Source: an uncultured bacterium (lineage in GTDB: Bacteria; Cyanobacteriota; Vampirovibrionia; Gastranaerophilales; Gastranaerophilaceae). Taken from it: 41,373 nt of DNA. Location: positions 1-41,373 of the forward strand of contig CACXCI010000044.1 of assembly GCA_902766105.1 (NCBI GenBank), read 5' to 3'. The notes under the pieces were generated by a model. It saw nothing but the letters and a program-made list of their open reading frames with translations, was not told where the DNA came from and ran no database searches. The position numbers and the translations under genes are program-made. Positions 1 to 12,028 of the stretch are shown here, in pieces; within the stretch, counting starts at the first letter, position 1, and each line of letters opens with the position of its first letter.

Positions 1-972
1 TTGGTTGAAATGGATGGTTTTGATGTAAATACAAATATCATTGTAATTGCTGCAACAAACAGACCTGATATTTTGGATAATGCTCTGTTAAGACCGGGAA
101 GATTTGACAGACAAATTTATATTAATGCCCCTGATGTAAAAGGTAGAGAAGCTATTTTAGAGGTTCATGCCAAAAATAAAAAACTTGATAAGGATGTTGA
201 TTTAAAAATTCTGGCAAAAAGAACCCCCGGATTTACGGGAGCTGATTTGCAAAACTTGTTGAATGAATCAGCTCTGCTTGCAGCACGCAATGGAGAAGAT
301 TTAATTACAATGGAAGACGTTGATAAATCAATAGATAGAGTTATTGCAGGTGTAGAAAAACGTTCTAAAGTCTTAACTGATGCAGATAAAGAGTTAACCT
401 CATACCACGAAGTCGGTCACGCTTTAATTGACAAACTATTACCTGATGCAAATGAACTTCATAAAGTTTCAATAATTCCACGCGGAATGGCACTGGGTGT
501 AACTTGGACAAGACCAAAAGATGAATCCGTTCACGTAAGCAAAGCTAAATTGCTGGCAAAAATTGCCGTATCTTTAGGCGGTCGTGCCGCAGAAGAAATT
601 GTATATGGTAAAGACAAAGTTAGTACAGGTGCATCTCAGGATTTAATCAATGTTACAGATATGGCTCGTAAAATGGTTACTGCTTGGGGTATGTCAGAAA
701 AATTAGGAACTATGGCATACGGTAAAAATCAAGAAAACGTATTTATGGGCAGGGATTTCGGACATCAAAGAGATTATTCCGAACAGGTTGCTTATGAAAT
801 TGATCAGGAAATCAAGCGTATTGTTGATGAACGTTATGAACTTGCAAAAAAATTGTTATCAGAAAATCGTGATATGCTGGAAAGAATTTCTAAGGAGCTT
901 TTGGACAAAGAAACAATTGATGAAAAAGAATTCGAAGAAATTATGAACAGAGTAAAAGCTGAACGTGTGTAA
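1..972 (+). CDS. ftsH: ATP-dependent zinc metalloprotease FtsH, C-terminal part (cut by window edge)
   Basis: Membrane-anchored AAA+ protease that degrades misfolded membrane and some soluble proteins. The 323 visible residues cover the end of the AAA domain and the whole peptidase domain. The second region of homology with both arginine fingers (RPGRFDR, residues 31-37) and the sensor segment IVIAATNRPD are clear. The zinc site is HEVGH at residues 136-140, with the third ligand probably Asp214 in ASQDL. The first codon (ttg) lies inside the AAA domain, where the family reads LLVEMDGF, so it is not the start. The N-terminal membrane segments, Walker A and Walker B lie outside the window. The ORF ends in a short charged tail, as is normal for the family. 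Function is very secure. Confidence 0.97.
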   Translation: MVEMDGFDVNTNIIVIAATNRPDILDNALLRPGRFDRQIYINAPDVKGREAILEVHAKNKKLDKDVDLKILAKRTPGFTGADLQNLLNESALLAARNGEDLITMEDVDKSIDRVIAGVEKRSKVLTDADKELTSYHEVGHALIDKLLPDANELHKVSIIPRGMALGVTWTRPKDESVHVSKAKLLAKIAVSLGGRAAEEIVYGKDKVSTGASQDLINVTDMARKMVTAWGMSEKLGTMAYGKNQENVFMGRDFGHQRDYSEQVAYEIDQEIKRIVDERYELAKKLLSENRDMLERISKELLDKETIDEKEFEEIMNRVKAERV

Positions 973-1009: not shown

Positions 1010-1738
1010 ATGCTGATATCAAATACCTTATTTGCACAAATAATTAATATCAAAAACCCGAAGGAGTTGCCTTCGGATTTAAGAATTTCTCCTTATTGCG
1101 ATATTCTTGGTTTTCGGTTTTTAAAATACAATAGTGAATTTGAAACTGATAAGATTCTAAAACAAGTTCAGAATGACATTAAAAAAGATTTGCCATTTCT
1201 ATTTATTGGCACAGGCGACGATGAAACTGATAAAATATTATTGCCTGAAATAGCTAAAAATATAAAAAAATCTTCTATTGTTGCAAACATAAATGAAAAG
1301 ACGTATAAAGATATTATTCCGTCAATTATTGCAGGCGGGCATTATGCTGTTTTAAAAACTCCGATAGATATAAATTTGGCAAAAGAATTAAATATATTGT
1401 CTGTTGATATGGGTTTACCGCCAGAAAAAATAATTATGAATACCGATATAGGCGGACTCGGATATGGTTATGAATATGGTTACAGCATAATGGAAAAGGT
1501 TAAATTAGAGGCAAAAAAAGATAAATATCTTAATTTTCCCTTATTTTCAGATGCGTCTTATGAGTCATTGAAAACAAAAGAAGCAAAATCTGACGATTTT
1601 TCAAATAGTTGGGGTGAATTATCGGTCAGGACAAAAATGATTGAATTATCAGCCTGCTCAGGAGCTATTGCTGCAGGTGCTGATATTATAACTGTCAGTA
1701 ACCCCGATAATATAAAAATTTTGAAGGGTTTGGTGTAA
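1010..1738 (+). CDS. Corrinoid iron-sulfur protein small subunit (AcsD/CdhD-like), short form
   Basis: Resembles the small subunit of the corrinoid iron-sulfur protein (CFeSP), the TIM-barrel partner that carries a methyl group between methyltetrahydrofolate and acetyl-CoA synthase in the Wood-Ljungdahl pathway. Family hallmarks are the stretch SPLDIN-like TPIDINLAKELNIL, the PEKIIMNTDIGGLGYGYEYG segment, the SIMEKVKLEA helix and a C-terminal AGADIITVSNPD strand. At 242 residues it is shorter than the usual 310 or so: it begins where the TIM barrel starts and lacks the family's N-terminal region. A palindromic repeat (1153-1177) is read in frame as KILKQVQND. No good ribosome site lies at the normal distance. 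The start is therefore uncertain. The next gene starts 2 bases after the stop, so the two are surely co-transcribed. Confidence 0.82.
   Translation: MLISNTLFAQIINIKNPKELPSDLRISPYCDILGFRFLKYNSEFETDKILKQVQNDIKKDLPFLFIGTGDDETDKILLPEIAKNIKKSSIVANINEKTYKDIIPSIIAGGHYAVLKTPIDINLAKELNILSVDMGLPPEKIIMNTDIGGLGYGYEYGYSIMEKVKLEAKKDKYLNFPLFSDASYESLKTKEAKSDDFSNSWGELSVRTKMIELSACSGAIAAGADIITVSNPDNIKILKGLV
1153..1177 (+). repeat. Palindromic repeat inside the AcsD-like gene
   Basis: A 25-base element, gattctaaaacaagttcag followed by aatgac, with inverted-repeat arms (gattct / agaat). It is one of at least three near-identical copies in the window (others at 2169-2193 and 24566-24590). Here it lies in frame in coding sequence and encodes part of KILKQVQND. 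Confidence 0.7.
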
Positions 1739-1740
1739 AT

Positions 1741-2889
1741 ATGGAAATGTCAGGATTACAAATTTTCAAATATTTACCTGCGGCAAAAAAAGAGGAACAT
1801 TCAAATTGCAAAGAGTGTGGCTGCCCGACCTGTATGGCTTTTGCTCTAAAACTTGCAAAACAAAATATTGAAATAAAGGAATGTCCGTACATAAAAGATG
1901 AATTGAAGGAATTATACTCTCATAGTGTAAAACATGCACAAGAAACAGTTTTGATAGGTGATTTGAAAATTGGCGGAGAAAATGTCCTCTATCGTCACGA
2001 AAAGACTTTTATAAACAGAACGGTCTTGGCTGTGGCTCTTGATTGCAGCAGTCATAATTTTGAATCAGAACTTAAAAAGATTTCTGAGTTTGAGATTAAA
2101 GGTGTGAAGGAAAACCTAAAAGTCGATTTGATTATCTTGAAAAATTTGAAAGATATAAATGATACAAAGATTCTGAACCGAGTTCAGAATGACAAATCTG
2201 TTAGTATAATAACATTGGAAGAATTTAATAAACTTGAAATTGATATCATAATTGATGAAAACTTTAAGGTAACAAAAGATTATCTGATTACCTCAAGAAC
2301 AAAGGCAATAATAGAAAAAGATGAAACGTATTCAAAGCCTGTTTGTGTTTTGATGAAAAAAGGTAACATCTATGAAACCTGCGCAAAGGCAAGCTATTAT
2401 ATATGCAAATACGCAAATATGTTAGTTTTTGAGGATTTTGATGAAGCTATGTTTTCGACAATTTTACGTTTGCGAGAAAACATCTATACAGACCCTCAAA
2501 AGCCATTGCAAGTTGAATCAGGTTTGTATGAATTTAATTCACCCGACAAAAATTCAATAGTATTTTTGACAACAAATTTCGCACTGACATATTTTGCTGT
2601 TGCAAACGAGCTTGACGGGGCAAATGTTCCATCATATCTTGTTGTAATTCCTGCAGACGGAATGAGTGTTTTAACAGCGTGGTCTGCTGAAAAATTTACA
2701 GCAGATATTGTTTCAAGGACTCTCAACCGTTTAGATATCAGAGATAAAATTTCTACAAGAAAAATAATTATCCCTGGACTTTTGGCGCACATGATAGATG
2801 AGTTAAAAGATGAAATTCCGGATTTCGATTTTGTTGTAGGAACAAATGAAGCCTCTGATATAAAAGAATTTATAAAAACAAAATGTTGA
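1741..2889 (+). CDS. Corrinoid iron-sulfur protein large subunit (AcsC/CdhE-like)
   Basis: Homologue of the CFeSP large subunit, which binds the corrinoid and a [4Fe-4S] cluster used for reductive activation. The N-terminal cluster motif is intact: Cys23, Cys26, Cys31 and Cys48 (C-x2-C-x4-C-x16-C), followed by the TIM-barrel region. The C-terminal corrinoid-binding domain is also recognisable: VFLTTNFALTYF, then VPSYLVVIPADGMSVLTAW, RKIIIPG and VGTNEASDI, all typical AcsC features. Length is 382 residues against about 445 in acetogens; the middle barrel is the compressed part. A palindromic repeat at 2169-2193 is read in frame as KILNRVQND. No acetyl-CoA synthase, CO dehydrogenase or AcsE methyltransferase gene is in the window, so the methyl acceptor is unknown. 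The assignment to the family is firm, the physiological role is not. Confidence 0.88.
   Translation: MEMSGLQIFKYLPAAKKEEHSNCKECGCPTCMAFALKLAKQNIEIKECPYIKDELKELYSHSVKHAQETVLIGDLKIGGENVLYRHEKTFINRTVLAVALDCSSHNFESELKKISEFEIKGVKENLKVDLIILKNLKDINDTKILNRVQNDKSVSIITLEEFNKLEIDIIIDENFKVTKDYLITSRTKAIIEKDETYSKPVCVLMKKGNIYETCAKASYYICKYANMLVFEDFDEAMFSTILRLRENIYTDPQKPLQVESGLYEFNSPDKNSIVFLTTNFALTYFAVANELDGANVPSYLVVIPADGMSVLTAWSAEKFTADIVSRTLNRLDIRDKISTRKIIIPGLLAHMIDELKDEIPDFDFVVGTNEASDIKEFIKTKC
2169..2193 (+). repeat. Palindromic repeat inside the AcsC-like gene
   Basis: Copy of the 25-base palindromic element. It differs from the intergenic copy at 24566-24590 at a single position (gattctgaaccg versus gattctgaacca). 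It is read in the same frame as the copy at 1153-1177 and encodes part of KILNRVQND. Confidence 0.75.
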
Positions 2890-10291: not shown

Positions 10292-12028
10292 ATGGTTGAA
10301 AAATTTGAATTTAATTTGTCTGTAGCTGAACTTGAAAAAAGAACACACAAAGATTATTTAATTACGAAAAAATTTTTAAAAGCGGATGCTCCTGAATTTT
10401 TGGCATTAGCCCCCGGAGATAAAAAAGCTCTAAGACACCTATGTGTTGCTGCTGAAATTTTAGAAAAGATTAATATGCAAATTGATTGCAAACATAATTT
10501 GGCTGTTAAAGAATTTTTGGAAGAAGAGGTCAAAAAAGGAAACAAACAGGCAAAATTGACCAAAATTTTGTTTGATGCCCAAAAAGGTTGTAATGCAATA
10601 GACACAATGTCAAATCCTATAAGACTTATTAAAGGAGTTGATGAAAAACTCGGTAAAGGTGTTTATCCTGAGGATTTGTCAAAAGAGGAATTCCATACAG
10701 TACTTTTGCGTATGCTAAAAGAGGGTAAAACTGATGAGGTTAAGGAAATTCTGACTTCACGCTCTGTTGTTGTGAGGGCTGCTGAGGATTTGGCCGGAAT
10801 TGATTATATTGATTATTTTAATGAAGATTTTAATAAAATGGCAGATGAACTGGAAAAAGCAGCATCTGTTTCAACTAATTCAGATTTTAACGAATATTTG
10901 TTATTGCAGGCAAAAGCATTGAGAACAGCTGATCCTATGCTGGATGCTTATGCAGATAAAAAATGGGCAACCCTTCAGGATACTCCGTTAGAATTTACAA
11001 TAACAAGAGAAAATTATGAAGATGAAATGACAGGTACTATTGTAGAAAATGAAGAATTATCTGCGTTATTGAAGGAAAATAACATTTCACCAATTCCAAA
11101 AGATTTTCTAGGAGGAAGAGTCGGTATAGTTAATAAAAAAGGAACTGAAGCACTACTTGCCATAAAAAAATATTTACCGACATTAGCAGAAAATATGCCA
11201 TACGCAGATGAATATAAACAAACAATATCAGCCGAAGCAGATTCTGAACAAACAATGGTTGATGTTGATATGGTTATGGCATCAGGTGATGTCGGTGAGT
11301 ATCGTGGGGGTATTACATTGGCAGAAAACCTTCCAAATTCGGATAAGTTGTCTTTAACAATCGGCGGCGGAAGACGTAATGTTTACCACAGACAAATTCG
11401 TTTTATTAGTGATAAGAAAAAACTTAAAGAACGTCTTGATGCTATTTTAGATAAAGAACAGCACAAATATTATCTTGATGAAGCGGATCACTGGTTTACA
11501 ATAGGTCATGAAAACGCACACTCCCTCGGACCTAAAGAAGGTAGTGAAAAATTAGGTAAATACCGTAATATTATCGAAGAAAACAAGGCAGATATGGGAG
11601 CTTTGGCATTTGTTGATTTGTTGACTGAACTTGGAATGTACACTCCTGAGCAAAGACTTCAAATTATAGTAACAACGATGGCTGATAATTTCTTAAAATC
11701 AAAACCGACCATGTCGCAGGCTCACAGAGTTCGTACAGTAATGCAAAATAAGTATTTCTCAGAACGTGGCGGATATGAACTTACAAAAGATGGTAAAATT
11801 CACGTAAATATTGATAAAGTCGTTCCGATTGCTAAAGAAATGCTTGCTGAAATCGTTAGAATACAGATTGACGGCGATTTCAATAAGGCTGAAAAATATG
11901 TAAATGATAATTTTGTCTGGACAGATAATATGGAAATAATTGCTAAAAAGCTTCAAAAAATCAGTAAGACATTAAACGGTCGATTAGAAACAGAACTTGC
12001 TGATAAGCTTCTTGCCGGCGCAGTTTAA
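10292..12028 (+). CDS. M49-like zinc metallopeptidase (dipeptidyl peptidase III relative)
   Basis: Large cytosolic protein without signal peptide or membrane helix. The zinc site resembles that of family M49: HENAH at residues 406-410 followed about 19 residues later by EENKAD (429-434). M49 enzymes such as DPP III have HELLGH and EECRAD; the bacterial relatives with a five-residue HExxH and an E-E-x-K-A-D second motif match this layout, and the GP after the histidines fits them too. The N-terminal 300 residues are mostly helical and less conserved. DPP III releases dipeptides from short peptides; that activity is an inference here. A strong ggagag site precedes the ATG. The gene has its own terminator and no functional neighbours. 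Family link fairly secure, substrate unknown. Confidence 0.75.
   Translation: MVEKFEFNLSVAELEKRTHKDYLITKKFLKADAPEFLALAPGDKKALRHLCVAAEILEKINMQIDCKHNLAVKEFLEEEVKKGNKQAKLTKILFDAQKGCNAIDTMSNPIRLIKGVDEKLGKGVYPEDLSKEEFHTVLLRMLKEGKTDEVKEILTSRSVVVRAAEDLAGIDYIDYFNEDFNKMADELEKAASVSTNSDFNEYLLLQAKALRTADPMLDAYADKKWATLQDTPLEFTITRENYEDEMTGTIVENEELSALLKENNISPIPKDFLGGRVGIVNKKGTEALLAIKKYLPTLAENMPYADEYKQTISAEADSEQTMVDVDMVMASGDVGEYRGGITLAENLPNSDKLSLTIGGGRRNVYHRQIRFISDKKKLKERLDAILDKEQHKYYLDEADHWFTIGHENAHSLGPKEGSEKLGKYRNIIEENKADMGALAFVDLLTELGMYTPEQRLQIIVTTMADNFLKSKPTMSQAHRVRTVMQNKYFSERGGYELTKDGKIHVNIDKVVPIAKEMLAEIVRIQIDGDFNKAEKYVNDNFVWTDNMEIIAKKLQKISKTLNGRLETELADKLLAGAV

Follow-up and report, generated by a model that had tools for sequence, protein, structure and literature searches.

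The window analysed here, a 41,373-nucleotide stretch that makes up contig CACXCI010000044.1 (contig 44; the genome measures 1.89 Mb and is 99.75% complete) of an uncultured bacterium of the Gastranaerophilaceae, carries two adjacent genes, acsD and acsC, for the small and large subunits of a corrinoid iron-sulfur protein (CFeSP). We consider it likely that this protein, AcsCD, is the corrinoid methyl carrier of the Wood-Ljungdahl pathway taken over for methionine synthesis, acting together with MetF, an AcsE-like methyltransferase and a short core methionine synthase. On our best reading, these four gene products would jointly stand in for the single-protein MetH. A first-pass annotation, made from the sequence alone, had tentatively linked the pair to methionine synthesis by way of a core MetE-type synthase, and the proposal is strengthened by the finding of such a synthase in the same genome, with its zinc- and homocysteine-binding residues in place and a distribution that tracks CFeSP across the order.

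Both open reading frames (ORFs) were confirmed at the positions and lengths first assigned to them (Table 1), separated by a gap of 2 bases and located directly behind ftsH. The pair shows the hallmarks of CFeSP: two adjacent homologous subunits, an N-terminal four-cysteine 4Fe-4S motif, a C-terminal corrinoid domain and a large subunit scoring as an AcsC equivalog. AcsC matches the Pfam families CdhD (1.1e-50) and FeS (3.5e-10), passes the 306-bit cut-off of the NCBIfam AcsC equivalog NF003195 with 314.9 bits, and matches the solved CFeSP large subunits 9fzy/2h9a/4djd. Its AlphaFold model (predicted local distance difference test score, pLDDT, 85.8) superposes on solved large subunits with Z-scores of 28-30 over 366-370 residues, and residues 250-382 of the model match the corrinoid domain of HgcA with a Z-score of 12.6. 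The metal and corrinoid segments were described as intact at first sight. Indeed, alignment with 26 relatives revealed that the cluster cysteines Cys23, Cys26, Cys31 and Cys48 are invariant, and that the corrinoid-domain segments TTNFALTYF and GMSVLTAWSA are kept.

The small subunit belongs to Pfam CdhD above the cut-off and matches solved CFeSP small subunits at 1.7e-29. However, it reaches only 157.7 bits against the curated NCBIfam AcsD cut-offs of 280 bits or more and thus fails the test for a canonical AcsD, because its N-terminal part is missing: the alignment starts only at residue 47, which corresponds to position 110 of the solved small subunit. The middle barrel of AcsC is about 60 residues short of that in solved CFeSPs. 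Both subunits are therefore truly shortened, as first noted, by about 60 residues each in the family of the window. In more distant families of the order AcsC has 423-465 residues and AcsD 288-322, with intermediate lengths in some genera, and short subunits characterize the closest family. In several basal genomes acsC stands without an adjoining acsD (L034, L036, L042, L044, L045). Proteins resembling DUF2229/2-hydroxyglutaryl-CoA dehydratase were found near CFeSP in two basal families, with a similar one near metF in another family (L035:5031-8524, L038:12086-13156, L120:3-743), and could possibly be low-potential electron donors. They were considered as a CFeSP activator and set aside, since they lie near CFeSP in three loci and not generally.

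The acetyl-CoA synthase AcsB (PF03598) was found neither in the own genome nor in any of the 146 genomes of the order, in a search that matched pathway-bearing controls and was directed at AcsB, not at CO dehydrogenase. Since 98 of these 146 genomes encode the CFeSP large subunit, CFeSP without AcsB is the rule in this order. The first-pass annotation had also reported AcsE and folate one-carbon genes as missing. They are not beside the pair, but an AcsE-like gene, metF and folD are present elsewhere in the genome. It had further taken an acsE gene in the genome as evidence against a methionine role, whereas an AcsE-like gene without AcsB supports that role instead. A scan with the partner protein returned named relatives mostly from Candidatus Gastranaerophilales (Melainabacteria), a group whose members are obligate anaerobic fermenters (PMC3787301). 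This fits the first-pass description of a gut cyanobacterium-like fermenter, in which such a carrier had been called unexpected. The trait is found well beyond this genome and is widespread in the order. No methionine or corrinoid role in Melainabacteria or Gastranaerophilales was found in the literature searched, including PMC3787301.

Ordinary methionine synthases were also looked for. The own genome gave no match to the MetE catalytic domain PF01717 (Meth_synt_2) and none to the MetH/BHMT domain PF02574, for which controls matched. The fruitless Pfam searches with PF01717, PF02574 and PF01208 (URO-D) had suggested that no homocysteine methyltransferase was present, an idea abandoned when the core synthase was later found. 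In one basal genome, a 1449-residue ORF that lies upstream of the CFeSP genes was considered as MetH; it has no Pfam match and was rejected.

The core synthase was first met as a conserved neighbour of the AcsE-like gene in basal families, where a 360-residue protein is followed by a CooC-like ATPase, FolD and, last, the AcsE-like gene. The basal protein has no credible Pfam match, and its homologues there gave none to PF01717 (hmmscan, E 0.1). A profile built on it and run on the own genome identified a protein of 354 residues (448.6 bits), whose gene shares an operon with folD and the gene of a CooC-like ATPase. As a sequence-profile search of the PDB gave only chance matches, we used structure comparison. 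The AlphaFold model (pLDDT 93.7) has its best match in the B12-independent core methionine synthase 3rpd (Z-score 25.3), and matches the C-terminal half of MetE with bound zinc and homocysteine about equally well (Z-score about 25). Matches to URO-D (about 20) and BHMT (13.7) are weaker. The modelled fold is thus a short MetE fold that lacks the N-terminal folate-binding barrel.

Six residues, Ser14, Asp187, His228, Cys230, Asp249 and Cys326, are invariant in 23 aligned core synthases and are also kept, wherever covered, in further homologues from named genomes. In MesB, the zinc ligands are at positions 214, 216, 235 and 311 and the homocysteine-binding residues at 15 and 177 (Price et al., PMC7857596). 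The present residues agree with these in order and identity (His, Cys, Asp and Cys for zinc; Ser and Asp for homocysteine), and the ligand spacings in MesB and in the core synthase are 2 and 2 (H-C), 19 and 19 (C-D), and 76 and 77 (D-C). We therefore call the protein MesB-like, a designation that sets it beside MesB by published positions and not by the MesB sequence. Weak homologues exist in CFeSP-less genera, and the zinc ligands are lost in all three that were examined: H-C-D-C is replaced by Q-F-D-G in L207 and L208 and by S-S-T-S in L209 (Table 1). These proteins possibly have a new function. Three other weak homologues are cut down to about 290 residues. A homologue from Thermodesulfobacteriota (L249:2284-3369) shares 38% identity with the core synthase and has the same six catalytic residues; no acs gene was seen on its 7.3 kb contig.

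The remaining parts are also present in the own genome. MetF scores 298 bits, above its equivalog cut-off. The AcsE-like protein matches solved methyl-tetrahydrofolate (methyl-THF):CFeSP methyltransferases at 1.8e-36, and its catalytic and folate-binding Asp/Asn residues are kept in 39 of 39 sequences, with one Asn substituted once. It is named AcsE-like as its scores of 188.6 and 147.4 bits are below the NCBIfam AcsE cut-offs of 259 and 370. In one genus the AcsE-like gene adjoins metF. The CooC-like ATPase beside the core synthase matches CooC, of CO dehydrogenase/acetyl-CoA synthase maturation, at 1.8e-8, and Cys110-x-Cys112 is invariant in its alignment, an arrangement that we take to be the metal-binding one of CooC. 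Thus, in an order free of AcsB, the core synthase operon retains a maturase of the nickel-insertion type, without its known client. As a guess, the ATPase might load zinc or activate the corrinoid.

Among the 146 genomes, CFeSP, metF, the AcsE-like gene and a strong core synthase occur all together in 89, are all missing in 40 and are partly present in 17. CFeSP and the core synthase show the tightest association (both in 97 genomes, CFeSP alone in 1, synthase alone in 3, neither in 45; phi 0.94), followed by CFeSP with the AcsE-like gene (93, 5, 1 and 47 in the same order; phi 0.91) and CFeSP with metF (90, 8, 6 and 42; phi 0.79). The module was lost in several genera including that of the window, in which G035 and G069 have none of the four parts. 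Pairwise distances of AcsC, the AcsE-like protein and the core synthase correlate with r of 0.74-0.90 in 17-19 genomes, which is consistent with largely vertical descent and is by itself no proof of interaction. In three CFeSP-less genomes (G106, G113, G125) MTHFR lies in a frame of about 610 residues and is accompanied by an ORF of about 900 residues with a pterin-binding domain. In the two of these ORFs that were read (from the set G106:C16, G113:C11 and G125:C103) the start is MetH-like (ILDGAMG...), which looks like replacement of the module by a conventional synthase. Two further genomes, G006 (99% complete) and G005, have metF and are without CFeSP, the AcsE-like gene, the core synthase and a PF02574 domain.

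Based on these results, we propose the following relay. MetF would reduce methylene-THF to methyl-THF, from which the AcsE-like enzyme would move the methyl group to Co(I) of AcsCD. The MesB-like synthase would bind homocysteine through Ser14 and Asp187, and the thiol, activated on zinc held by His228, Cys230, Asp249 and Cys326, would take the methyl group from methyl-AcsCD to form methionine. Each methyl transfer, the reductive activation of AcsCD, the direct contact between AcsCD and the synthase, and homocysteine as the acceptor are all predicted by analogy with the named families. As the AcsE-like gene and metF are present and co-occurring, the methyl donor is probably methyl-THF and not acetyl-CoA. 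In the own species, PF01053 (cystathionine/O-acetylhomoserine enzyme) gave only weak, partial matches, the best at 4.6e-12 over positions 51-233. In the lack of a strong homologue, the module there probably recycles homocysteine from the S-adenosylmethionine cycle or from outside instead of making methionine de novo. PF01053 matches are full-length in the basal families, making de novo synthesis possible there. We hold more tentatively, and as slightly more likely wrong than right, that the whole order makes or recycles methionine by this corrinoid relay without acetyl-CoA synthase, with a dedicated CooC-type ATPase whose task has shifted from inserting nickel to loading or activating the relay.

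Several observations weigh against takeover for methionine synthesis. The co-occurrence counts and p-values ignore shared ancestry, and the module genes are spread over three contigs in the own genome. The core synthase reaches no curated family cut-off, with methionine synthase PRK00957 as the best NCBIfam match at 37 bits. G058 and G079 are CFeSP-less and still have a core synthase with the catalytic residues, and G109, the sole CFeSP genome without a core synthase, has the other three parts. PF01053 does not track the module either, as many genomes with strong PF01053 matches are without the module and vice versa; we therefore gave up the idea of CFeSP as a marker of de novo methionine prototrophy and, for the own genus, prefer recycling. 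Finally, G054, G057, G068, G112 and G142 keep CFeSP and the core synthase, whereas metF and the AcsE-like gene are missing. These are five of the six sampled genomes of one genus, the sixth of which (G033) has all four parts, and the CFeSP loci read in the five-genome group (L016, L029, L032) are intact. Their retention in these five genomes singles out CFeSP and the core synthase as the two parts that stay together, and suggests that methyl groups have another source in this genus.

The same five genomes bear on the view that the couple of CFeSP and core synthase is real and that its main methyl donor is other than methyl-THF, MetF and the AcsE-like enzyme being one feeder among several. We find this improbable, since all four parts occur together in 89 genomes and the AcsE-like gene belongs to the core synthase operon of basal families and adjoins metF in one genus. 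Slightly more room, though still little, is left for a thiol other than homocysteine, such as sulfide or a coenzyme-like thiol, as the acceptor of AcsCD and the MetE-fold protein. The failure of the core synthase at every curated cut-off would allow another thiol, as would the fact that the own genome has nothing strongly homologous to the usual homocysteine-forming enzymes; methanogen methyltransferases are members of the MetE/URO-D superfamily, and 4ay7/4ay8 match the core synthase at Z-scores of 19.5-19.9. Nevertheless, the core synthase is closer to methionine synthases (Z-score 25) than to URO-D-type proteins (about 20), and the Ser and Asp for homocysteine binding are conserved. Moreover, metF is kept although no other methionine synthase was found, and the linkage with MetF and FolD suggests that one-carbon units flow into biosynthesis.

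AcsC, AcsD, the AcsE-like protein, FolD, MetF and a CooC-type ATPase are all there as in acetogens, which could indicate a Wood-Ljungdahl remnant still serving acetyl-CoA metabolism with an unrecognised acetyl-CoA synthase. This is very unlikely: AcsB is absent throughout the sampled order, both subunits are shortened in the window's family, and the association is with a MetE-fold synthase. We give the least credence of all to a non-functional relic carried along in the ftsH operon. The short subunits and the fast divergence of acsD (34-60% identity to relatives in the order) would fit decay. However, the frames are open, without internal stops in CFeSP genomes, the cofactor residues are invariant, and loss and retention are matched with those of the core synthase and AcsE-like genes.

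As to the surroundings of the pair, its placement between ftsH and an amylase gene was borne out, with ftsH upstream and an alpha-amylase gene downstream of acsC. ftsH is immediately upstream of acsD, mostly overlapping it, in 31 of 42 acsD loci inspected (a few of them duplicates), so that ftsH-acsD-acsC looks like a single transcript in the window's family. The direct neighbours (ftsH and amylase here, flagellar genes in other families) were considered as a functional clue and proved uninformative. In two basal families (L038, L039, L043) the CFeSP genes come straight after a run of flagellar-type genes. A 568-residue protein encoded at window positions 10292-11995 has no Pfam match and is found also in a relative within the genus.

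Table 1. Features of the window and of associated loci (G000, own genome).
Feature	Position	Strand	Basis
ftsH, 3' part	1..972	+	ORF, synteny
acsD-like (shortened CFeSP small subunit), 242 aa	1010..1738	+	ORF, Pfam/NCBIfam, solved small subunits, alignment
acsC (CFeSP large subunit), 382 aa	1741..2889	+	ORF, Pfam/NCBIfam, solved structures, alignment, AlphaFold model
AcsC 4Fe-4S cluster motif C23, C26, C31, C48	1807..1884	+	alignment, Pfam FeS match
AcsC middle (TIM-barrel) domain, shortened, limits approximate	1936..2487	+	solved structures, alignment, AlphaFold model
AcsC C-terminal corrinoid-binding domain, TTNFALTYF and GMSVLTAWSA segments	2488..2886	+	solved structures, alignment
MesB-like core synthase, 354 aa	G000:C32:14503-15564 (L194:9501-10565)		profile match
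CooC-like ATPase, 251 aa, beside core synthase	L194:8744-9499 (own genome C32)
AcsE-like gene	G000:C32:63708-64604
metF	G000:C61:37468-38286
Diverged core synthase homologues, CFeSP-less genomes	L207:9576-10622, L208:9406-10476, L209:9612-10685		alignment

That CFeSP donates methyl groups to MesB core synthases has been predicted for organisms whose acetyl-CoA synthesis or cleavage depends on CFeSP as well. Here the acetyl-CoA role has dropped out, and the carrier, reduced in size, persists alongside the synthase; nature has pulled the two functions apart, and the prediction can be tested directly. The relay would also supply the step that seems to be missing from methionine metabolism in a gut lineage for which standard family searches report no methionine synthase. 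It indicates that parts of a pathway for carbon fixation can live on as a module for biosynthesis. If true, a relative of cyanobacteria in the gut would make or recycle methionine by a distinct route built from acetogen-type parts.

The nearest known system is the AcsB-AcsCD-core MetE (MesB) route of Dehalococcoides mccartyi (PMC7005905, PMC7857596). Both have CFeSP as the proposed methyl donor to a short MetE-fold synthase without a folate-binding domain, the HCDC zinc set, and no MetH or MetE. The likeness to Dehalococcoides drawn in the first-pass annotation therefore holds for the core synthase route and less so for the methyl source: here AcsB is missing and an AcsE-like enzyme and MetF are present, pointing to methyl-THF in place of acetyl-CoA cleavage. 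The carrier branch of acetogens (MetF, AcsE, AcsCD, AcsB) would share the same relay as far as methyl-AcsCD, whereas in this order AcsB occurs in 0 of 146 genomes, the terminal acceptor is predicted to be a core methionine synthase, and AcsC and AcsD are shortened. Compared with MetH, the proposed overall chemistry is alike, from methyl-THF to corrinoid to zinc-activated homocysteine. However, MetH is one modular protein, whereas separate proteins of Wood-Ljungdahl and MetE ancestry would do the work here, with an AcsC-type corrinoid domain accompanied by a 4Fe-4S cluster and a homocysteine module of the MetE fold instead of PF02574. The fold and catalytic residues are shared with MesA, MesC and MesD (PMC7857596), and MesD (3rpd) is the closest solved structure; the HCDC set and the ligand spacing are those of MesB, not of MesA (Glu ligand), MesC (His for Cys) or MesD.
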